Source of the DNA: Burkholderia sp. HI2500
GTDB taxonomy: Bacteria > Pseudomonadota > Gammaproteobacteria > Burkholderiales > Burkholderiaceae
Length of the DNA stretch: 64,000 bases
Assembly (NCBI RefSeq): GCF_002223055.1
Contig: NZ_NKFL01000006.1
Span: forward strand, 2,170,001-2,234,000
Direction of reading: 5' to 3'
Numbering within the stretch: the first letter of the stretch is position 1; the number at the start of each line of letters is the position of its first letter. The notes below the pieces were generated by a model, which worked only from the letters and a program-made list of their open reading frames with translations, was not told the origin of the DNA and ran no database searches. This document shows positions 16,787 to 30,166 of this stretch, in pieces. A program made the position numbers and the translations under genes.

Positions 16787-17218
16787 TCACGCCTTGTGCG
16801 TCGACAGCAAAATACTCGTCTCGGTATTCGCGATCCCGTCGATCAGCCGGATCGCGCCGAGCACGCGATCGAAGTGCTCGAGCGAATCGGCATGCAGCTC
16901 GGCGACGAGATCCCAGCGCCCGTTGGTGCTGTGGATCGACGCGACGTTCGGATGCCCGCGCAGCACCTTCACCACTTCCGCGCCGCGATTGCCTTGCACG
17001 GCGATCGACATCAGCGCGCGGATCCGGTGCCGTTCGGCCGCCGGCTTGAGCCGCACCGTATAGCCGACGATCACGCCGTTCTTCTCCAGCCGCGTCAGCC
17101 GGTTCTGCACGGTCGCGCGCGCGACGCGCAATTCCTTCGCCAGCGCGACGACGGGCAGTCGCGCGTTGTCGCGCAGCAGCGCGATGAGCTGCCGGTCGAC
17201 GTCGTCGAGCGTGATCAT
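16787..17218 (-). CDS. Lrp/AsnC-family transcriptional regulator
   Basis: A 143-residue Lrp-type regulator. The N-terminal HTH (LDDVDRQLIALLRDNARLP, ARATVQNRLTRLE) is followed by an AsnC ligand-binding (RAM) domain ending ETSILLSTHKA. The ATG at 17218 is the normal family start. It is divergent from ornithine cyclodeaminase and a CtlX-type hydrolase, so it probably responds to an amino acid such as arginine, ornithine or citrulline. The gap carries a strong array of candidate binding sites described separately. Confidence 0.92.
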   Translation of the reverse strand: MITLDDVDRQLIALLRDNARLPVVALAKELRVARATVQNRLTRLEKNGVIVGYTVRLKPAAERHRIRALMSIAVQGNRGAEVVKVLRGHPNVASIHSTNGRWDLVAELHADSLEHFDRVLGAIRLIDGIANTETSILLSTHKA

Positions 17219-17282
17219 GAACGGGCCTTCCTGTTGAACGTGAACCGGCCGCCAGCGTGCCGGAGCCTTTGCATTCCGACCA

Positions 17283-17353
17283 GGCAATTTAATCAAATTG
17301 CCATATCTGGCCAGCAATTTGCCAAGTCTATCGATAAATCTGCCACTTTTGCC
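17283..17353. promoter_or_regulatory. Candidate Lrp operator array with 21-base phasing
   Basis: A perfect dyad, GGCAATTT (17283-17290) and AAATTGCC (17295-17302), is followed by further half-sites: TTTGCCA at 17318-17324, CTGCCA at 17340-17345 and TTTTGCC at 17347-17353. The TGCC cores at 17299, 17320 and 17341 repeat at exactly 21 bases, two helical turns, which suits DNA wrapping around an Lrp octamer. The array lies between the Lrp gene and the divergent catabolic operon. Confidence 0.65.
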
Positions 17354-17511
17354 GTCTTTTTGTTGGCTCGACTCGCGGAAATAATGGCTCTATCGACCGG
17401 CCGACCCGCCGCGCCGCTGCTGTTCCAGGAAGCCCGGATGCGCGCCGAAGCCCCGCCCGGTCGATCAGAACGCCGGGCACCCGTACCGGCCACGAATATG
17501 GAGACAGACGT

Positions 17512-18591
17512 ATGACCCGCTTCCTCGACGTTCCCGCCACCGCCCGACTGATCGCCCAAACCGGCGTCACGACGTTCCTCCGCGAGCTCGTCGACACGCT
17601 GCGCGCCGATTACCTGCACTGGGCCGACTTCGACAAGTCGCCGCGCGTCGCGTGCCACTCGCGCGACGGCGTGATCGAACTGATGCCCGTCGCGAACGCG
17701 TCGCTGTTCGCGTTCAAGTACGTGAACGGCCACCCCGTCAATGCCGCGCGCGGGATGCACACGGTGATGGCGTTCGGCGCGCTCGCCGAAGTCGATACCG
17801 GCTACCCGCTGCTGCTCGCCGAACTCACGCTGACCACCGCGCTGCGCACGGCCGCCACGTCGGTGCTCGCCGCGCAAGCCCTCGCCCGCCCTGATTCGCG
17901 CACGATGGCGCTGATCGGCAACGGCGCGCAGAGCGAATTCCAGGCGATCGCGTTCCACACGCTGCTCGGCATCGACGAAATCCGCGTGTTCGACGTCGAT
18001 CCTCATGCGACCGACAAGCTCGTGCAGAACCTCGCCGCCTACCCCGCGTTGCGCGTGGTGCGCGCCGCGTCGACCGCCGACGCCGTGTGCGGCGCCGACA
18101 TCGTGACGACCGTCACCGCCGACAAGGCATACGCGACGATCGTCACGGCCGACATGATCGAGCCCGGCATGCACCTGAACGCGGTGGGCGGCGATTGCCC
18201 GGGCAAGACCGAACTCGAGGCCGGCGTGCTGCATGCGGGCCGCGTGTTCGTCGAATTCGAGCCGCAGTCGCGCATCGAGGGCGAGATCCAGCAGATGCCG
18301 GCCGACTTCCCCGTCACCGAGCTGTGGCGCGTGCTGCAGGGCGAGACGACCGGCCGCGAACGCGCGGACGAAGTCACGGTGTTCGACTCGGTCGGCTTCG
18401 CGCTCGAGGATTACTCGGCGTTGCGCTACCTGTATGCGCTCGCGCAGCAGCACAACGCGGGCGTCGAGATCGCGCTGATTCCGCCGGCCGTCGACCCGAA
18501 GAACCTGTTCGCGCTGATCGACGACCCGGCCGCGATCGCGCAGGGCCACGCGGCATACGTGACCGAAGCCGTCGCCGCGTTCGCGCGCTGA
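17512..18591 (+). CDS. Ornithine cyclodeaminase
   Basis: A 359-residue member of the ornithine cyclodeaminase/mu-crystallin family, converting L-ornithine to L-proline and ammonia with bound NAD+. The NAD-binding segment is ALIGNGAQSEFQ near residue 140. Other landmarks are the N-terminal HWADFDKSPRVACHS and the VGGDCPGKTELE segment near 225, with the D that in the family serves catalysis. Full length for the ornithine-specific branch. First gene of the Lrp-controlled operon; the next gene makes a probable ornithine-producing hydrolase, so the pair would funnel citrulline or arginine nitrogen to proline. Confidence 0.88.
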   Translation: MTRFLDVPATARLIAQTGVTTFLRELVDTLRADYLHWADFDKSPRVACHSRDGVIELMPVANASLFAFKYVNGHPVNAARGMHTVMAFGALAEVDTGYPLLLAELTLTTALRTAATSVLAAQALARPDSRTMALIGNGAQSEFQAIAFHTLLGIDEIRVFDVDPHATDKLVQNLAAYPALRVVRAASTADAVCGADIVTTVTADKAYATIVTADMIEPGMHLNAVGGDCPGKTELEAGVLHAGRVFVEFEPQSRIEGEIQQMPADFPVTELWRVLQGETTGRERADEVTVFDSVGFALEDYSALRYLYALAQQHNAGVEIALIPPAVDPKNLFALIDDPAAIAQGHAAYVTEAVAAFAR

Positions 18592-18650
18592 CGGTCATCC
18601 CCGGGCGGCCCGTGCGCCGCCCGGCCCCTTGCCTTTCGCTCCTGCCTTCC

Positions 18651-19655
18651 ATGAATCTCGTATCGATCCAGGCGCCGGCCGCCGTCGTGATGATCCGGCC
18701 GCACCGCTTCCTGCCGAACCCGCAGACCGCGGCCGACAACGCGTTCCAGCGCACGGCCGGCGGCGACGGCGCGCACGGCGCGGCATCCGTGTCGGCCGCC
18801 GCGCGCGACGAAGTCACGGCCGCCGCGCGGACGCTCGCCGATGCGGGCGTGCGCGTGCACGTGTTCGACGACCACGGCGAGCGCGACACGCCCGACTCCG
18901 TGTTCCCGAACAACTGGTTCTCGACGCATCCGGGCGGCCACGTCGCGCTCTTTCCGATGTTCAGCCCGAACCGGCGCCGTGAGCGGCGCGCGGACGTGAT
19001 CGAGATGCTGAAGGCCGAGTACCGCGTGCAGGACGTGATCGACTACTCGGGCCTCGAATACGACGACGTGTTCCTCGAAGGCACCGGCGCGCTGGTGCTC
19101 GACCACGTCGCTCGGATCGCGTACACCGCGCGTTCGCGCCGCGCCGATCCGGTCGCGCTCGAACGCTTCTGCACGCACTTCAATTTCGAGCCGATCTGCT
19201 TCGATACGGCCGATGCCGACGGGCGGCCGATCTATCACACGAACGTGATGATGAGCGTCGCGACCGAGTTCGCGATGGTCGGCCTCGAACTCATTGCCGA
19301 CCGCCGTCGTCGTGACGAGATCGCACAGCGTCTCGCCGAAACGGGCCGCACGGTGATCGCGCTCGATGCCTCGCAGATCGCGAATTTCGCGGGCAATACG
19401 CTGGAATTGTCGGGCAAGGAAGGGCGTGTGCTCGCGCTGTCGCGGCGTGCGTACGACTGCCTCACGCCGGTGCAGCGCGCGACGATCGAGCGTTCGGCAC
19501 GGCTGCTGCCGCTCGACGTGCCGACGATCGAACTGGCCGGCGGCTCGGTGCGCTGCATGCTGGCGGGGATTCATCTGGCGCGGCGGGCGGTGGCGCCGAA
19601 CGTGATGGCCGTGGAATCGGCCGCATCGTCATGCGAGACGACGCCACAGATGTGA
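18651..19655 (+). CDS. ctlX: Citrulline-utilisation hydrolase CtlX-like (amidinotransferase fold)
   Basis: A 334-residue protein of the guanidino-group-modifying superfamily. Visible landmarks are the substrate-pocket segment DSVFPNNWFSTH near 85, EGTGALVLD near 145, the catalytic His in PIYHTNVMM near 200 and the nucleophile Cys in GGSVRCMLAGIHL near 305. It matches the CtlX group, reported to act on citrulline, rather than classical arginine deiminase. It follows ornithine cyclodeaminase by about 60 bases in one operon. Product is probably ornithine, fed to the neighbouring enzyme (inference). Confidence 0.78.
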   Translation: MNLVSIQAPAAVVMIRPHRFLPNPQTAADNAFQRTAGGDGAHGAASVSAAARDEVTAAARTLADAGVRVHVFDDHGERDTPDSVFPNNWFSTHPGGHVALFPMFSPNRRRERRADVIEMLKAEYRVQDVIDYSGLEYDDVFLEGTGALVLDHVARIAYTARSRRADPVALERFCTHFNFEPICFDTADADGRPIYHTNVMMSVATEFAMVGLELIADRRRRDEIAQRLAETGRTVIALDASQIANFAGNTLELSGKEGRVLALSRRAYDCLTPVQRATIERSARLLPLDVPTIELAGGSVRCMLAGIHLARRAVAPNVMAVESAASSCETTPQM

Positions 19656-19808: not shown

Positions 19809-22553
19809 TCACCCCGCCAGCAGCTTCAACCCCGCCGGCAGCGTTTCGCCGAACACACGCACCGTGTCGGCTTCGTCGAACGCGATGGCCTCGCGCACCA
19901 TGTCGATCCATGCCGCCGACGCATTCGCGGCCGACAGGCGCTTGATCACGGCCTCGCGGGTATCGTCCGGCAGGTCGCGCGAACGGTCTCCGGTCATCCG
20001 CGCAATCTGTGCAGCCGCGAACGCAGCCGGTTCAACCTGCTTCCAGTCGAGCGCGAACAGCGCATCGAGCCAGCCGGTGGCGACTTCCGCCGGCACGACA
20101 CTGTGCGCGCTGCCGTAGAACGGCCGGCGCGCACCGATGCGTCCGAGCGCCCACGCGCACAGCGTGCGCTCCGCCGGCTTCTGCAATTGCGCGATCAACC
20201 GCTCGGCCAGCTCGACCTTGCGTTCGACGGGCAGCCGTTCGAGCGACGCGGACAACCGCGTCATATCGGCCGGCCCGACCTTGCCCGGGTCGAACGGCAG
20301 CTTGCGCCGCTTGTCGTCGGTCGGTTCGAGGAAGGCGATCGCGTCGCGCACCTGCGTCTGCGCATCGTCGTCGAGGCCGCCGGCCACGCGCCGCCACAGC
20401 GTCCACCACTCGGACCACACCTGAGCGTCGGTCACATACTGAATCCCGTCGTCGAACAACGGCCACAGCTGCTCGATGCGCCATGCATCGAGCGGATGCC
20501 CGAAGCCCGGGCGCAGGCAATAGCCGGCGAGGTTCAGCCACGCACGTTCGTGATCGGCCGAGCGCCGGCGGCGCCGTGCGCGCGCGAGCAACGCATCGAA
20601 CAATTCACGCGCGAGCGCAACGTCCCACTCTTCCCGCGCACCAAGCACCTGCTCAAGCTGCGCGCGCAGCCGTCGCGTGTCTTTCGGCGTGACGCCGGCG
20701 GCCTTGCTGCCGAACGAGCGCTCGATCAGTTCGAGCGCCTGGTCGAGCCGCGGATGCCGCGCGAGCGCAGCGTCGTCGCCCTGCACGGGCGCATCGCCGC
20801 GCAGCTGGAATTCGAGCCGCCAGCGGCGCGATGCATCGTCGGTCGCGATGCAGTGCATTTCGAGCGTGCCGACTTCCGTCAGCGACGCGGTGAGCTTCAC
20901 CGGTGTTTCGCTCGCATCGCCGCCCACTTTTGCGTCGACGACCGTCGCGATCGGCGGCAGCCGCACGAAATCGCCGCCGTCGAAATCGACGAGATCGCCG
21001 GGCCGGTATGCGGTGTCGGCCACCGTCGACACGAGGTGGAAACGCACCGGCTGCCCGAGTTGCAGCGCGAACGTGCGATCGTCGAGCCGGATCTCGTGGC
21101 CCTCTTCCGCGCCGCGCGGCAGCAGGCAGACGCCGCGCACGGCCGCGCCTTCGGCACCATCGTCGAGCACGAGGAAATAGCTGCGCGCGGAACCGCCGCC
21201 GATGCGCGGCGCATGACCGGCGCGCGCGAGCCCGTAGGCCACCGCGCCGCGCGCGACCGCGACGTCCGGATGCGCGTTGTGCAGCACGTCGAGCGGCGCG
21301 CCGCGCCACGCGCCGAGCGTCTGCGCGAGACGGTCGGCGAGCGCGCCCGCGCGGAACACGCCGCCGTTGAGCAGCAGCGTGTCCGGCAGCGGGCCTTCCG
21401 CATGACGATTCAGGAACGCGGCGACGTGCCGCGTGACGGCCGCGTCGCTCGCATACGGCAGCCCGAATTCGACGATCGCGGCGCGCGCACGGCGCGGCAA
21501 CTCGCCGGCTTCGACCTGCGGAAAGAACCCGTCGACGACGATCTGCTCGACTTCCTGCCGCGTCAGCTCGGCCGAGCGCGCGCCGCCGACGAGCTTGCTG
21601 CCCGCGCCGAGCAGCGTGACGTTGACGGATTCGGGCGCATCGTCGCCGAGCAGCCGCTCCTTCGCGGCACGGCAACGCTCGACGAGCTGCGACAGGCTCG
21701 CGGCCGACAGCCGCGTGCCGGGCTCGGTCAGCCGCGACTCGACCAGGCGCGCGAGCGCGAGGTCCATGTTGTCGCCACCGAGCATCAGGTGGTTGCCGAC
21801 GCCGACGCGCGTGAAGGTCGGCTCGCCGTCGTCGCCCGGCGCGACATCGACGAGCGTGAGATCGGTCGTGCCGCCGCCGACGTCGCAGATCAGCACGCGG
21901 CGCGCAGCGGCAAACGTCTCGCGCAGCGTGTCACGCTGCCCGTACAGCCAGTCGTAGAACGCGGCCTGCGGCTCTTCCAGCAGCCGCAGCGCGGGCAGCT
22001 TCGCACGCCGCGCGGCCTCGACCGTCAGCGCGCGCGCGCCGTCGTCGAACGACGCGGGCACCGTCAGGATCACGTCCTGCTTCGCGAGCGGTGCGTCGGG
22101 AAAACGGGCATCCCATGCGTCACGCACGTGCGCGAGATAGCTCGCGCTCGCGTCGACCGGCGACACCTTGTCGACGCCGTCGGCCGCGCCCCACGGCAGG
22201 ATCGCCGCGAGCCGGTCGACCGACGCGTGCGACAGCCAGCTCTTCGCGCTCGTCACGAGCCGGCCCGGCACCTGCGCGCCGAGCGTGCGCGCGTAGCGGC
22301 CGATCACGGCCGGCGTCGCACCGGCCGCGCTCGCTTTCGCGTGGGCCACCCACGGCAGCCGCAGCGTGTCCGGCGGCAGCTCGCCCGCCGCCGGGTGATA
22401 GCGCACCGACGGCAGCAGCGGCTGCGCGGCCACCGCGCCGGGGCCGACCAGCTGCTCGACGTCGAACACGCGGATCGCGTCGGAACCGGCCTCGACGTAT
22501 GCGACGACCGTATTGCTCGTGCCGAGGTCGATCCCGACCGTATAGCGCTTCAT
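19809..22553 (-). CDS. Large Hsp70-family protein with C-terminal extension
   Basis: A 914-residue Hsp70-type protein. The N-terminal actin-like ATPase domain (about 1-400) has the phosphate-1 motif GIDLGTSNTVVAY, phosphate-2 CDVGGGTTDLTLVD and the GGDNMDLALA segment. A substrate-binding-like region follows, then a ~300-residue C-terminal extension that DnaK lacks (I think DUF3731). No DnaK-style acidic tail. It starts six bases after the smaller Hsp70 gene and is the last gene of the DUF2760-Hsp70-Hsp70 operon. Cytoplasmic; clients are unknown. Confidence 0.88.
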   Translation of the reverse strand: MKRYTVGIDLGTSNTVVAYVEAGSDAIRVFDVEQLVGPGAVAAQPLLPSVRYHPAAGELPPDTLRLPWVAHAKASAAGATPAVIGRYARTLGAQVPGRLVTSAKSWLSHASVDRLAAILPWGAADGVDKVSPVDASASYLAHVRDAWDARFPDAPLAKQDVILTVPASFDDGARALTVEAARRAKLPALRLLEEPQAAFYDWLYGQRDTLRETFAAARRVLICDVGGGTTDLTLVDVAPGDDGEPTFTRVGVGNHLMLGGDNMDLALARLVESRLTEPGTRLSAASLSQLVERCRAAKERLLGDDAPESVNVTLLGAGSKLVGGARSAELTRQEVEQIVVDGFFPQVEAGELPRRARAAIVEFGLPYASDAAVTRHVAAFLNRHAEGPLPDTLLLNGGVFRAGALADRLAQTLGAWRGAPLDVLHNAHPDVAVARGAVAYGLARAGHAPRIGGGSARSYFLVLDDGAEGAAVRGVCLLPRGAEEGHEIRLDDRTFALQLGQPVRFHLVSTVADTAYRPGDLVDFDGGDFVRLPPIATVVDAKVGGDASETPVKLTASLTEVGTLEMHCIATDDASRRWRLEFQLRGDAPVQGDDAALARHPRLDQALELIERSFGSKAAGVTPKDTRRLRAQLEQVLGAREEWDVALARELFDALLARARRRRRSADHERAWLNLAGYCLRPGFGHPLDAWRIEQLWPLFDDGIQYVTDAQVWSEWWTLWRRVAGGLDDDAQTQVRDAIAFLEPTDDKRRKLPFDPGKVGPADMTRLSASLERLPVERKVELAERLIAQLQKPAERTLCAWALGRIGARRPFYGSAHSVVPAEVATGWLDALFALDWKQVEPAAFAAAQIARMTGDRSRDLPDDTREAVIKRLSAANASAAWIDMVREAIAFDEADTVRVFGETLPAGLKLLAG

Positions 22554-22558
22554 CGCGC

Positions 22559-24400
22559 TCAGGCGGCGCCGCGCACGTCGAACTCGACCTTCCAGCGCTC
22601 GTCCGTGCCGCTCGGGATCGCCTCGAGTTCGAGCGTGCCGGCTTCGGTCACGCGCGCATGCAGCTTCACGGGCACGACCTCGCCGACGGTGCGCCCTTCG
22701 GCGGGCAGCGTCGCCTGGATTTCCTCCAGCTCCTGCAGCTCTTCCGGCGACCAGTAGTCGAGCAGCGTGCCGACCTGGTCCTGGCGGCGCACCGACGAAC
22801 CGAAGAAGCGGAACTGCACCGGTTCGCCGACGACGAGGCCGAACTCCTGCGGCGGCAGCGCCGCGTCCGAGCCTTCCTCCATGCCGAACGGCGCGACGCA
22901 CAGCGCCTGCACCGGCGGTTCGAGCCCCGGCACGGCCGGCATCGCAGATTCGATCGCGACGTAGTACGCACGCGCCGTGCCGCCGCGAATGCGCACGCCC
23001 CGGCCGCGCTTCACGTAGCCGTAGTACGCGGCGCCGCGCGCGACCGCGAGATCGAGATCCGCGCCTTCGAGCAGGCGCGCGGGCGGCGCGCCTTCAGCGG
23101 CGAGCCAGCTGTTGAGCGTATCGAGCACGCGCTGCGTGAGCAGCGTCGACTTGAACACGCCGCCGTTGAACAGCACGGCGGTCGGATGCAGGAACGTCGC
23201 GCCCTGCGGCAGCGTGCGCTGCACGCCTTCGAGCGAGTCGAGCGCCGCGACCTGACGGCCGAGGAACGCCGCGAGATGGCGCGTGATGCCCGCGTCCTGC
23301 GCATACGGCAGGCCGAGCTGCGTCAGGCCGACACGGGCGCGGCTCACCGGGCGCGCGGCCGCGTCGACTTGCGGGAAGAAGCCTTCGAGGATCGTCTGCG
23401 TGAGTTCGGCGCGCGTCAGCTCCGTGCGGATCGACCCGCCGATCAGCTTCGAGCCGCGGCTCGGCACGACGAGCGGCACCGCGTCGGTCGTCGGGTCGGA
23501 CAGCAGCGTTTCCTTCGCGGAACGGCATGCGTACGTGAGCGCGCGCAGTTGCCACGGATCGGCCTGCGTGCCCTGCTGCGCGAGCTTGCGCGCGACGACG
23601 TGCGCGAGCGCGAGGTCCATGTTGTCGCCGCCGAGCAGGATGTGCTCGCCGACCGCCACGCGATGCAGTTCGAGATTGCCGTCGCGCTCGACCACCGCGA
23701 TCAGCGACAGGTCGGTCGTGCCGCCGCCGACGTCGACGCACAGGATCAGGTCGCCGACCTGCACCTGCTTACGCCAGCCGCCCTGGCTCTTCTGGATCCA
23801 GCTGTACAGCGCGGCCTGCGGCTCTTCGAGCAGCGTCATCCGCGAGTAGCCGGCGGCGCGGGCGGCCTCGGCCGTCAGTTCGCGCGCGGCCGGGTCGAAC
23901 GACGCGGGGATCGTGACCGTCACGTCCTGGTCGGCGAACGGCGCGTCGGGATGCGCGTGGTCCCACGCTTCGCGCAGGTGCGTCAGGTAGCGGATCGAGC
24001 TTTCCAGCGGCGACACGCGCGCCACTTCCGGCGGCGCATCGCTCGGCAGGATCGCCGCGCGGCGGTCGACGCCCGGGTGGCACAGCCAGCTCTTCGCGCT
24101 CGACACGAGGCGGATCGGCGTGCCGGCGCCGCGCGTGCGCGCCATTTCGCCGACTGCGAAAGCGCGCGAGGCCGTCCACGGCAGCGTCAGGTCGCCTTGC
24201 GTGAGTTCGCTTTCATGCGGCAGGTAAAGGAACGACGGCAGCAGGTCGCGCGACTCCAGCGCGCCGGGCGCGGTGAGCTGCGCGATCGGCAGCACCTGCT
24301 GCGTGATGGTTTCGCCGTCGCTCGCGGCGCTGTCGACATACGACAGCGCGCAGTGGGTCGTCCCGAGATCGATACCGATCGAATAGCGCGGATCGCTCAC
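22559..24400 (-). CDS. Hsp70-family protein
   Basis: A 613-residue Hsp70 relative with GIDLGTTHCALSYV at the N-terminus, CVDVGGGTTDLSLI at phosphate-2 and GGDNMDLALAHVV. It is near DnaK length, but the sequence diverges strongly from DnaK and HscA: there is an insert near 205 (KSQGGWRKQ) and no recognisable DnaK lid. It overlaps the DUF2760 gene by four bases and precedes the larger Hsp70 by five. Two non-identical Hsp70s in tandem suggests they work together, perhaps as a heterodimer or relay (inference). Confidence 0.88.
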   Translation of the reverse strand: MSDPRYSIGIDLGTTHCALSYVDSAASDGETITQQVLPIAQLTAPGALESRDLLPSFLYLPHESELTQGDLTLPWTASRAFAVGEMARTRGAGTPIRLVSSAKSWLCHPGVDRRAAILPSDAPPEVARVSPLESSIRYLTHLREAWDHAHPDAPFADQDVTVTIPASFDPAARELTAEAARAAGYSRMTLLEEPQAALYSWIQKSQGGWRKQVQVGDLILCVDVGGGTTDLSLIAVVERDGNLELHRVAVGEHILLGGDNMDLALAHVVARKLAQQGTQADPWQLRALTYACRSAKETLLSDPTTDAVPLVVPSRGSKLIGGSIRTELTRAELTQTILEGFFPQVDAAARPVSRARVGLTQLGLPYAQDAGITRHLAAFLGRQVAALDSLEGVQRTLPQGATFLHPTAVLFNGGVFKSTLLTQRVLDTLNSWLAAEGAPPARLLEGADLDLAVARGAAYYGYVKRGRGVRIRGGTARAYYVAIESAMPAVPGLEPPVQALCVAPFGMEEGSDAALPPQEFGLVVGEPVQFRFFGSSVRRQDQVGTLLDYWSPEELQELEEIQATLPAEGRTVGEVVPVKLHARVTEAGTLELEAIPSGTDERWKVEFDVRGAA

Positions 24401-24984
24401 AGTTCCACCTCCGCCGGTGCGACGACCGACGCGTCGTGGCTGCCCGTCAGCTTCGGCAGGCGCACGTCGGCGACCCGCCAGCCGCGATGGCTGACCGTGC
24501 CCGTGAACGGCGCGGCGCCGACCACGTTGCCGGTCACGCGCACGGCCGTCGCGTCGAAACCGGCCGGCAGCGTCACGCGGCTGCCTTCGGCTTCGTCGCG
24601 CACCGGCACGATCGTGAAATGTTCGCGCAGCGCGGCACGGCAGCCGTCGTGCACGAGGCGTGCGGCCGCGCCGATGTCGGCGTCCGCGTAGCCGGCGATG
24701 TCTTCCTCGACGAAGTCGATGAAGCGCGCATCGCGCTGCAGCAGGCCGAGCAGTTGCAATGCAGCCTGCGGGCTCGCCTCGCTCAGCTCGGGCGCCGGCG
24801 CCTTCACGGGCGCGGCGGCAGGCGCCGGGGCCGGGGCCGCGGCGGGGGCCGGCGCGACCGGGGCCGGGGCGCCATCGCGCACGCGCAGCACGCCGGCCGC
24901 GAACTCGCGGTTGCCGAGCACGGAGAAGAACGTGCCGACGGCCAGCGACAGCCGGCCGAAGAAGGACAGGTTGGATTCGGGCAT
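24397..24984 (-). CDS. DUF2760-domain protein, partner of the tandem Hsp70s
   Basis: A 195-residue protein. Residues 1-38 form an amphipathic/hydrophobic start (LSFFGRLSLAVGTFFSVLG), residues ~39-66 a low-complexity Ala-Pro linker, and the remainder a compact domain containing ALQLLGLLQRDARFIDFVEED, which fits DUF2760. The domain has no known activity. It is first in the operon and translationally coupled to the Hsp70 that follows. The hydrophobic start could tether the chaperones to the membrane, or the domain could act as co-chaperone (inference). Confidence 0.75.
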   Translation of the reverse strand: MPESNLSFFGRLSLAVGTFFSVLGNREFAAGVLRVRDGAPAPVAPAPAAAPAPAPAAAPVKAPAPELSEASPQAALQLLGLLQRDARFIDFVEEDIAGYADADIGAAARLVHDGCRAALREHFTIVPVRDEAEGSRVTLPAGFDATAVRVTGNVVGAAPFTGTVSHRGWRVADVRLPKLTGSHDASVVAPAEVEL

Positions 24985-25235: not shown

Positions 25236-25676
25236 TCAGCGCGGCTTGCGCCGCTTCGCGTGCTTCGCGTCGAAATCGCGCGACAGCATGCCGAGCGTGA
25301 CTTCGCCGAAGCGGGCGAGCAGCGTCGTCTCGGCCTCCTTCAGCGTGGCCGACAGGTGCGCATTGACGGCCTGCTCGACCAGGCATTCGGCCTCGTCGTC
25401 GGTCACCAGATCGGAGAACAGCGGCGGCTCGCCCACCGCGCGATAGACGTCGAGCAGCGTGATGTCGTCGAGCGCGACGCTCAGCACCCAGCCGCCGCCA
25501 TGCCCCTTCTCCGACTGCACGTAGCCGCAGTCGCGCAAGCCGCCGAGCAGGCGCCGCACGACGACCGGGTTCGTGCACAACATCGTCGCGATCGCGTCGG
25601 ACGTCATCGGGCCGTCGGCCTGATCCAGGTGGATCAGCGCATGCAGCATCCGCGACAAGCGGCTATCGGTTCTCAC
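25236..25676 (-). CDS. Rrf2-family transcriptional regulator
   Basis: A 146-residue Rrf2 regulator. The GTG at 25676 has a strong GGGGAG site about 9 bases upstream; a longer open frame to 25742 overlaps the operator dyad and is unlikely. HTH residues 24-60 include PMTSDAIATMLCTNPVVVRRL. It has three scattered cysteines (MLCTN, RDCGYV, EAECLV), not the clustered C-x5-C-x5-C of iron-sulfur members such as IscR, so thiol-redox sensing is more likely. Divergent from a thioredoxin-reductase-like flavoprotein that it probably represses. Confidence 0.88.
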   Translation of the reverse strand: MRTDSRLSRMLHALIHLDQADGPMTSDAIATMLCTNPVVVRRLLGGLRDCGYVQSEKGHGGGWVLSVALDDITLLDVYRAVGEPPLFSDLVTDDEAECLVEQAVNAHLSATLKEAETTLLARFGEVTLGMLSRDFDAKHAKRRKPR

Positions 25677-25705
25677 GAGCGGTGCTCCCCTCTCTCGAAA
25701 CTTTT

Positions 25706-25746
25706 GAAGTTGCGTGAATGATACCATCGCCCTATCATGCAACTTC
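25706..25746. promoter_or_regulatory. Candidate Rrf2 operator dyad
   Basis: GAAGTTGC at 25706-25713 is inverted as GCAACTTC at 25739-25746, and inside it ATGATA (25718-25723) is inverted as TATCAT (25733-25738). The nested dyad sits in the 156-base divergent gap next to the Rrf2 gene start. It is the most likely site of autoregulation and control of the flavoprotein gene. Confidence 0.6.
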
Positions 25747-27954: not shown

Positions 27955-29085
27955 GTGGACCTTCAAACCCTCAACACCCCGACCGCCCTGATCGACGTCG
28001 GCCGCATGCAACACAACATCGGCCGCATGCAGGCGCATCTGGACGCACTCGGCGTCAGGTTCCGGCCGCACGTCAAGACCACCAAATGCACGCACGTCGT
28101 CGATGCCCAGATCGCGGCCGGCGCGCAGGGCATCACGGTGTCGACGCTCAAGGAAGCCGAACAGTTTTTCGCGCACGGTATCCGGGACATCGTCTACGCG
28201 GTCGGCATGGTGCCCGCGAAGCTGGGCCAGGCGCTCGCGCTGCGCCGGCAGGGCTGCGACCTGAAGCTGGTCGCCGACAGCCTGCCGGCCGCGCACGCGA
28301 TCGCCGAATTCGGGCGCGCGCACGACGAGCGCTTCGACGTGTGGATCGAGGTCGACGTCGATGGTCACCGCTCCGGGATTCCGCCCGACGCCGACCTGCT
28401 GATCGACGTGGGCCGCGCGCTGGTCGACGGCGGGATGGTGCTCGGCGGGGTGCTCGCGCACGCGGGCTCCAGCTACGAATACAACACGCCCGACGCGCTG
28501 GCGGCGATCGCCGAGCAGGAACGCAGCCGCACCGTGCGGGCGGCGGAGCGCCTCCGGGCCGCCGGGCTGCCCTGCCCGGTCGTGAGCATCGGCTCGACCC
28601 CCACCGCCCTCGCGGCGGAACACCTCGAAGGCGTGACCGAAGTGCGCGCCGGCGTGTACGTGATGTTCGACCTCGTGATGCACAACATCGGCGTGTGCGA
28701 CCTGTCCGACATCGCGCTGTCGGTGCTGACCACCGTCATCGGGCACCAGGAAGAGAAAGGCTGGGCGATCGTCGACGCCGGCTGGATGGCGATGAGCCGC
28801 GACCGCGGCACGCAGCGCCAGGCGCACGACTTCGGCTACGGGCAGGTTTGCACCGAACAAGGCGACGTGCTCGGCGACTACGTGATGAGCGCCGCCAACC
28901 AGGAGCACGGGATCGTGTCGCGGGCAGGCACGCCCGACGCCGGCATCGCGCAACGGTTTCCGATCGGCACCCGCCTGCGCATCCTGCCGAATCACGCGTG
29001 CGCCACCGGGGCGCAACATCCCGAATATCAGGCGATCGGCGAAGACGGCGGCGCGCAGACGTGGCCGCGCTTCTACGGGTGGTGA
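27955..29085 (+). CDS. D-threonine aldolase / 3-hydroxy-D-aspartate aldolase-like PLP enzyme
   Basis: A 376-residue alanine-racemase-fold PLP enzyme of the D-threonine aldolase family. The PLP lysine is K41 in RPHVKTTK, and the C-terminal metal ligands H347-x-C349 lie in LPNHACATG, the mark of Mn2+-dependent D-threonine and 3-hydroxy-D-aspartate aldolases. It starts with GTG (MDLQTLNTPTALIDVG), with CCGAGG upstream. Likely reaction: retro-aldol cleavage of a beta-hydroxy-D-amino acid to glycine plus an aldehyde or glyoxylate, although the related D-serine dehydratase activity is not excluded. LysR-controlled. Confidence 0.82.
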   Translation: MDLQTLNTPTALIDVGRMQHNIGRMQAHLDALGVRFRPHVKTTKCTHVVDAQIAAGAQGITVSTLKEAEQFFAHGIRDIVYAVGMVPAKLGQALALRRQGCDLKLVADSLPAAHAIAEFGRAHDERFDVWIEVDVDGHRSGIPPDADLLIDVGRALVDGGMVLGGVLAHAGSSYEYNTPDALAAIAEQERSRTVRAAERLRAAGLPCPVVSIGSTPTALAAEHLEGVTEVRAGVYVMFDLVMHNIGVCDLSDIALSVLTTVIGHQEEKGWAIVDAGWMAMSRDRGTQRQAHDFGYGQVCTEQGDVLGDYVMSAANQEHGIVSRAGTPDAGIAQRFPIGTRLRILPNHACATGAQHPEYQAIGEDGGAQTWPRFYGW

Positions 29086-29120: not shown

Positions 29121-29149
29121 TTGACTATTTGTCCAAATCTGGACAAAAT
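29121..29149 (+). promoter_or_regulatory. Promoter overlapped by a perfect dyad
   Basis: A -35-like TTGACT (29121-29126), a 17-base spacer and a -10-like CAAAAT (29144-29149) carry a perfect dyad, TTTGTCCA (29128-29135) and TGGACAAA (29140-29147), across the spacer. This is a classic repressor geometry upstream of the second gene of the cluster. It suggests that gene also has its own regulated promoter. Confidence 0.6.
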
Positions 29150-29194
29150 TTAAACCACCCTGATTTGCCTGGCGCCGAAAGCGCTTGCCCGAAC

Positions 29195-30166
29195 ATGCCG
29201 ACCGACGACCGACTCCTGCTTCTCGACCGCGATACCGTCGCGCCCGCCCTCCAGGCCGCGCAAGTGACAGCGGCCGTTCGCGAAGCCTTCGTGCTGCATA
29301 GTCAGCGGGCCGGACGCGTGTTCCCGGTGGTGCGCGAGAAGCTGCACACCGGCGGCGTGTTCGGCATCAAGTCGGGCGATGTCGCGAATCAGGATCTGCT
29401 CGGTTTCAAGGCGGCCGGATTCTGGCCCGGCAACCGCGGGCTCGGCGGCGAACCGCATCAGGCCACCGTCGCGCTGTTCGACCCGGCCACGGGCCGCCCG
29501 CTGTGCATCATGGACGGCAATGCGATCACCACCGCGCGAACCGGCGCCGCCGGCGGCCTCGGTCTGCAACTGCTCGCGCGTCGCGACAGCGCGCGAATCT
29601 GCGTGTTCGGCACCGGCGTGCAGGCGCGCGTCCAGCTCGACTACGCACTCGGGCTGCTGCCGCAACGGTGCACCGTGCAGTACGTGAACGTCAGCGGCGA
29701 GCCCGACCCGGTGTTCGAATCGGCCTTCCGGGAACGATGCACGATCGGCGTGGCGCGCGACCGGAACGACGCGGTGGCCAATAGCGACGTGGTGATCACG
29801 GCAACGCCCGGTGGCGGCGCGCTGTTCGACGCGGATGCGGTGCAGCCGGGCACCCACCTGACCTGCGTGGGCGCCGATACCGCCGGCAAGCGCGAACTGC
29901 CGGCAGGCGTGCTGGACCGCGCGCGGATTTTCGTGGACGATCACGACCAGGCGCGCAGCATCGGCGAGTGCCAGTGGGCGCCCGATTTGCCACGCACGGA
30001 AATCGGTGACATCCTCGCGGGAACCGCGACGGTCGACCGCGCGCCGCACGAGATCACCGTCTTCGACATGACCGGGCTCGCGCTGCAGGACCTGACCGTC
30101 GCACGCTTCCTGTATCGGCAGGCCCTCGAAAACGGCACCGGAATCTCCATTCCGTGGCCCTGGTAA
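29195..30166 (+). CDS. Ornithine cyclodeaminase/mu-crystallin family dehydrogenase
   Basis: A 323-residue NAD(P)-binding protein with the nucleotide motif VFGTGVQARVQLDYAL near residue 130 and AADxxGKREL-type segment (GADTAGKRELP). The ATG at 29195 follows the promoter/dyad at 29121-29149; a TTG at 29129 would lie inside the operator and is rejected. It is distant from the first ornithine cyclodeaminase in this window (17512). It could be an imine or ketimine reductase, alanine dehydrogenase-like enzyme or 3-hydroxy-amino-acid deaminase; the aldolase neighbour favours a D- or hydroxy-amino-acid route. Confidence 0.78.
   Translation: MPTDDRLLLLDRDTVAPALQAAQVTAAVREAFVLHSQRAGRVFPVVREKLHTGGVFGIKSGDVANQDLLGFKAAGFWPGNRGLGGEPHQATVALFDPATGRPLCIMDGNAITTARTGAAGGLGLQLLARRDSARICVFGTGVQARVQLDYALGLLPQRCTVQYVNVSGEPDPVFESAFRERCTIGVARDRNDAVANSDVVITATPGGGALFDADAVQPGTHLTCVGADTAGKRELPAGVLDRARIFVDDHDQARSIGECQWAPDLPRTEIGDILAGTATVDRAPHEITVFDMTGLALQDLTVARFLYRQALENGTGISIPWPW

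Follow-up and report, generated by a model that had tools for sequence, protein, structure and literature searches.

Which partner drives a pair of Hsp70 proteins that is encoded without a J-protein at its side? This question is raised by an operon in the 64,000-nucleotide stretch of Burkholderia sp. HI2500 analyzed here (referred to as the window; NCBI RefSeq assembly GCF_002223055.1, contig NZ_NKFL01000006.1, positions 2,170,001 to 2,234,000), in which a DUF2760 protein (D) and two Hsp70-like ATPases (A and B) are encoded one after the other (Table 1). The operon is a non-canonical Hsp70 system, and it is proposed, as an evenly balanced judgment, that A and B represent a membrane-tethered Hsp70 pair activated by D instead of by a J-protein. 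J-proteins have been termed obligatory Hsp70 cochaperones (PMC7289447, available in part).

The original prediction, made from the sequence of the window, described two Hsp70 genes in tandem after a DUF2760 gene, and this layout proved exact to the base: D stop and A start share four bases (GTGA), and five bases lie between A stop and B start. Residues 72–194 of D match PF10816 (DUF2760; E = 3.7e-54, 182.3 bits at a cut-off of 25, profile positions 2–124 of 124). PF00012 was detected above the Pfam cut-off in A (residues 158–335, E = 3.4e-17) and in B (residues 129–341, E = 1.4e-16), and the tail of B covers the whole PF12531 profile (DUF3731; E = 4.2e-102, 341.7 bits, cut-off 25). A and B share 42% identity over 619 columns (E = 1e-141) and, as judged from this alignment, are paralogs, B being an A-like protein with DUF3731 added. 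Since nearly the entire A aligns with B, the approximately 300 extra residues noted for the larger protein are mainly DUF3731.

Table 1. Coordinates of the operon genes and of the adjoining regulator gene in the window.
Feature	Coordinates	Strand	Length (aa)	Remarks
D, DUF2760 protein	24397..24984	minus	195	ATG start, AGGAG upstream; PF10816 match
A, Hsp70-like ATPase	22559..24400	minus	613	GTG start; PF00012 match
B, A-like Hsp70 (residues 3-588) + DUF3731 (residues 665-911)	19809..22553	minus	914	ATG start
Rrf2-family regulator	25236..25742	minus		PF02082, E 2.9e-28; directly upstream of D, ~250 bases away

By their ATPase domain and catalytic residues, A and B are assigned to the Hsp70 superfamily (PF00012). 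The motifs GIDLGT, DVGGGTTD, and GGDNMDLALA are present in both, in line with the ATPase phosphate motifs and the GGDNMDLALA segment predicted for the two proteins, and profile matches to DnaK, HscA, and HscC extend across the domain. For a residue-level comparison, 40 A and 49 B sequences were hand-picked for spread from 75 A-bearing and 93 B-bearing loci (of 95), plus the window, and numbered by their E. coli DnaK equivalents, the numbering of the linker columns being less sure, as it was derived from a five-sequence alignment. K70, E171, D194, G196–G198, T199, and D201 are invariant in all 89 sequences, as are D8, G10, and T11, except for one B row that is gapped at D8–T11. Neither A nor B reached the NCBIfam cut-offs for DnaK and HscA (74–93 bits versus 620–709; at best 92.8 versus 620), the best matches in this collection being HscA models. 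The only hits to defence families were weak ones to PDC-M61B, located within the ATPase region (4.4e-6 for A, 0.019 for B); D gave none.

The surface through which DnaK communicates with J-proteins appears to be different in A and B. R167, Q378, the linker, and D393 have been described as sites of the J-domain/interdomain (allostery) interface, with N170 and T173 among the sites tied to DnaJ action (PMC8215388, PMC7289447, and PMC4022485, each available in part), and R167, N170, T173, Q378, and D393 are common to DnaK, HscA, and HscC of E. coli. According to the alignment, the J-domain contact residues (R167, N170, Q378, and linker) are mostly replaced in A and B. Y145 is exchanged for S, N170 for E, and V218 for R in 89/89 sequences, L177 for Y in 86, Q378 for Y or F in 85, and T173 for Q in 76, and R167 is retained in 3 of the 40 A and 15 of the 49 B sequences. 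None of the 89 carries D in the D393 column or a hydrophobic VLLLD-like interdomain linker, the place of which is taken by a basic/glycine-rich run. The conservation of a fixed alternative set of residues across phyla suggests that the interface is genuine, though of another kind, and not the result of decay.

In a tree of the ATPase domains (92 rows, quick method), A and B together are split from DnaK, HscA, and HscC by a long branch (Shimodaira–Hasegawa-like approximate likelihood ratio, SH-aLRT, 100), and a branch with an SH-aLRT of 98 separates all 40 A sequences from the rest; B was not resolved as a single group in this tree. By eye, the subtrees of both A and B follow phyla, which points to a probably ancient duplication.

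A and B have a homologous C-terminal domain in common (hhalign E = 3e-41). Their halves had been predicted to differ from DnaK, which agrees with the lack of a significant match to the DnaK substrate domain (hhalign probability 0.1%), the sensitivity of this comparison being limited, since DnaK was represented by a profile of three sequences. The last strands of A align locally with the DnaK beta domain at the expected place, at a non-significant level. A ends with the domain shared with B, leaving no sequence for a possible lid, and the DUF3731 tail of B showed no similarity to the alpha-helical lid of DnaK in the same three-sequence profile comparison.

The third component, D, was modeled with AlphaFold2 from 58 sequences (mean predicted local distance difference test score, pLDDT, 90.4; predicted template modeling score, pTM, 0.58). 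The model features two helices (residues 8–24 and 26–36), a Pro/Ala linker, and the helical/beta DUF2760 domain; no confident match among known folds was obtained for D. D ends in AEVEL, and a tail of this kind is kept in 56/58 aligned D sequences. When a hydropathy of KD19 ≥ 1.6 was taken as the transmembrane-like threshold, the hydrophobic N-terminal segment reached it in 26/58. A J-domain was not detected in D (no PF00226 match at E ≤ 1).

To evaluate the co-occurrence of the families, a check set in advance by the original prediction, two samples of 200 genomes each were analyzed, both including the source genome and having some genomes in common. DUF2760 and DUF3731 occurred together in 14 genomes of the phylum sample (DUF2760 alone in 1, neither in 185) and in 9 of the order sample (DUF2760 alone in 1, neither in 190), with Fisher p values of 1.3e-20 and 8.5e-15, respectively, which treat genomes as independent although they are not. 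Of the two exceptions, one (G026) has a contig that ends after A, cutting the operon, and the other (G308) is a 470-contig assembly. The two families thus co-occur almost perfectly, and mostly side by side, so that the outcome named in advance as refuting the original prediction did not arise. Within the genus, DUF2760 was found in 64 of 65 genomes, the sole miss being 82% complete, and is therefore regarded as core.

A scan with the B alignment yielded 217 loci, the best 80 of which form the basis of the following counts. According to their record titles, they belong to Pseudomonadota, Myxococcota, Desulfobacterota, Planctomycetota, Verrucomicrobia/Lentisphaerae, Acidobacteria, and others, and 58 of them carry D-A-B in that order on one strand, an arrangement shared by 12 of 15 additional stretches (14 additional genomes). 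Since the same gene order recurs in other phyla, the trio is not a product of chance. The remaining 22 loci comprise 15 with B but without D or full A, 3 with A and B, and 4 with D and B; among the 15 showing B alone, 6 have less than 3 kb of upstream sequence, including L129, where a piece of A lies at the end of the contig. For the 18 loci without D, 12 genomes were searched, and DUF2760 was present outside the locus in 12/12. A, which was distinguished from B on the basis of score and frame length, was found in 10 of 13 genomes having D and B, and it adjoins D in 7/8 genomes searched for both. D therefore represents the constant partner, usually with A next to it, and B can lie apart. In L040 and L063, about 2.9 kb separate A from B; in L040 the gap holds an opposite-strand open reading frame (ORF) that by eye resembles an outer-membrane porin. 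No further conserved neighbour of the operon was found. In L116, L114, and L120 (two Desulfobacula and a Bryobacterales metagenome-assembled genome), D directly precedes B and A was not found in the genome, possibly representing a minimal two-gene form, unless an assembly gap is responsible.

Complete D-A-B operons also reside on plasmids, namely near conjugation genes on the 110 kb conjugative plasmid pCC829_3 of Bradyrhizobium barranii (L179, 3384–8793) and on a Comamonadaceae plasmid; the Thiodictyon plasmid pTs485 carries D-A. Of 8000 candidates scored, 6028 were relatives of DUF2760, and a Myxococcus B query gave 7996 scored relatives, all 120 among the matches listed carrying PF12531. 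The operon is thus real, widespread, and core in the genus, and outside the genus it occurs as a unit on a conjugative plasmid.

Neither a J-protein gene nor a GrpE gene lies close to D-A-B in the 8.26 Mb source genome. Its single GrpE match is located on a different contig, and J-domain matches were obtained at C4:238366 and C4:2027250, the latter adjoining a second full-length PF00012 match, presumably hscA, with one more, below the Pfam cut-off, on the operon contig at a distance of about 440 kb. The predicted lack of a J-protein was thus supported at the locus and genome levels and, independently, by the replaced J-contact residues. Three more PF00012 matches (C5:957298, C3:173292, and C6:423815; L003, L006, and L007 of source genome G000), with open frames of 347, 439, and 369 aa, are additional to the two full-length Hsp70s and the A/B pair.

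Among known systems, HscC of E. coli is comparable as a specialized Hsp70, and its membrane-targeting partners would parallel the proposed role of D; it lacks a GrpE signature and works with the tail-anchored targeting factors DjlB and DjlC (PMC8215388, available in part). However, HscC keeps R167, N170, Q378, and D393, most of which are replaced in A and B, and its partners have J-domains, whereas D gave no DnaJ match at E ≤ 1. HscA and HscB form a dedicated Hsp70–cochaperone pair with adjacent genes in E. coli, but A and B score far below the HscA-type cut-offs, and no HscB or Fe-S gene was found among the operon or tested flanking genes. With DnaK, A and B have the ATPase domain and catalytic residues in common, differing in linker, J-interface, and C-terminal half, the place of the lid being empty in A and occupied by DUF3731 in B.

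Neither DUF2760 nor DUF3731 is named in the literature searched, and the trio seems to be unstudied as a unit, so the statement that its purpose had not been described holds for the trio. For a single member it does not, since MXAN_5323 of Myxococcus xanthus, a non-canonical Hsp70 of 925 aa (B, 914 aa) belonging to class cd10170, has been deleted (PMC8265645; the available part of this study is the source of the MXAN_5323 results given here). MXAN_5323 is probably the B ortholog, because its length, class, and species agree with a 925-aa M. xanthus protein carrying PF12531 and PF00012, which is 92% identical to B of a Myxococcus locus with D-A-B (L097). Its loss lowered sporulation and survival of H2O2. 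Swarming, predation, and growth during heat, cold, or osmotic stress resembled those of the wild type, and the gene failed to complement E. coli dnaK. Its transcript rose with H2O2; on heat, the transcriptome separated it from non-rising genes, and quantitative polymerase chain reaction showed no clear rise. A and DUF2760 receive no mention in the available part of that study. A ~65 kDa "Hsp70 family protein" from a Burkholderia proteome study (PMC7085900) may be A and is noted as a lead only.

The best-supported reading of these results is that the operon encodes a dedicated non-canonical Hsp70 machine, in which A and B keep the residues for ATP hydrolysis and have a re-wired interdomain/J-domain surface. 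As suggested by the conserved gene order, A and B probably pair up on one set of clients. The N-terminal helix of D would tether both proteins to the inner face of the cytoplasmic membrane, and the DUF2760 domain and/or the AEVEL tail may dock on and stimulate A and/or B, so that D would fill the place of the J-proteins that target and activate DnaK, HscA, and HscC. DUF3731, standing where DnaK has its lid, may provide client or partner specificity. The phenotype of the one probable ortholog points to upkeep of a particular membrane-associated client in oxidative or developmental stress as a likely role, rather than bulk refolding.

Several observations weigh against this proposal. The D helix in the window has a KD19 of 1.46 and falls below the transmembrane-like threshold, as in 32/58 D sequences in total, R is still present at the R167 position in the mentioned 15 B sequences, and a J-protein encoded elsewhere could act in trans. 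A seems not to be always needed, since three of the 13 genomes searched (G212, G213, and G214) yielded no A, although incomplete assemblies may account for this. The earlier description as "self-contained" is plausible, but qualified by these genomes and by B lying apart from D-A. Furthermore, the MXAN_5323 phenotype is not specific, because sporulation and H2O2 survival likewise fell on deletion of each of the other four nonessential hsp70 genes tested (PMC8265645, available in part).

The main alternative is that A and B act as scaffolds of this superfamily and not as chaperones. In PilM-PilN and FtsA, the ATP state governs docking of a membrane protein's peptide tail, and A and B could likewise be membrane-associated Hsp70/actin-fold scaffolds or switches whose ATP state controls docking of the AEVEL tail of D. 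The hydrophobic helix and conserved tail of D, weak MreB matches of the A/B ATPase domain, the C-terminal domain not detectably related to the DnaK substrate domain, and the failure of the probable B ortholog to replace dnaK would all fit; yet the best matches over the ATPase domain are Hsp70s, the last strands of A fall, non-significantly, where the DnaK beta domain would be expected, and, to our knowledge, scaffolds of this type come without a second, larger paralog. We consider this explanation unlikely, albeit less so than the two that follow. That A and B are conventional DnaK paralogues on which the housekeeping DnaJ and GrpE act in trans, with D an unrelated neighbour or client, agrees with intact ATPase residues and with DnaJ and GrpE being encoded in the source genome. 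It is rendered improbable by the replaced J-contact residues and linker, by scores far under the NCBIfam cut-offs, and by D being encoded in each of the 12 genomes examined in which B is not its neighbour. Eukaryotic Hsp110/Hsp70 pairs, in which a large and a standard-size relative act together, show the same size pairing, and A could accordingly be the working chaperone and B its nucleotide exchange factor. This split, which would suit a paralogous pair with a longer member in conserved order and no GrpE near, appears marginally less probable still, given that B keeps the catalytic residues, carries DUF3731, and persists alongside D in the genomes that yielded no A.

The Rrf2-family gene upstream of D is a possible regulator of the operon. 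Downstream, an ornithine cyclodeaminase-family gene (PF02423) is followed by a dimethylarginine hydrolase gene (DDAH, PF19420; 17512–19655), with an Lrp/AsnC regulator divergent from both (16787–17317), so that 16787–19655 looks, from its gene content, like an arginine/methylarginine catabolic cluster. Beyond the regulator gene, the ORF at 29129–30166 resembles by eye a second ornithine cyclodeaminase, and the adjoining ORF at 27955–29085 a pyridoxal-type racemase/aldolase.

Three types of Hsp70 were distinguished in prokaryotes in a 2021 review (PMC8215388, available in part). More tentatively than the tethered pair as such, we suggest that the operon represents a fourth type of Hsp70 system in bacteria, in addition to DnaK, HscA, and HscC, namely a membrane-tethered hetero-pair driven by DUF2760, not by a J-protein, with a re-wired interface conserved across phyla (E170, Y177, R218, and Y378, numbered as in DnaK). 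If true, a widespread Hsp70 pair in which the ATPase is kept, the J-surface is largely replaced, and a different small partner is present would reveal a further route by which the Hsp70 cycle can be driven, and two large families, DUF2760 and DUF3731, would be given a function.

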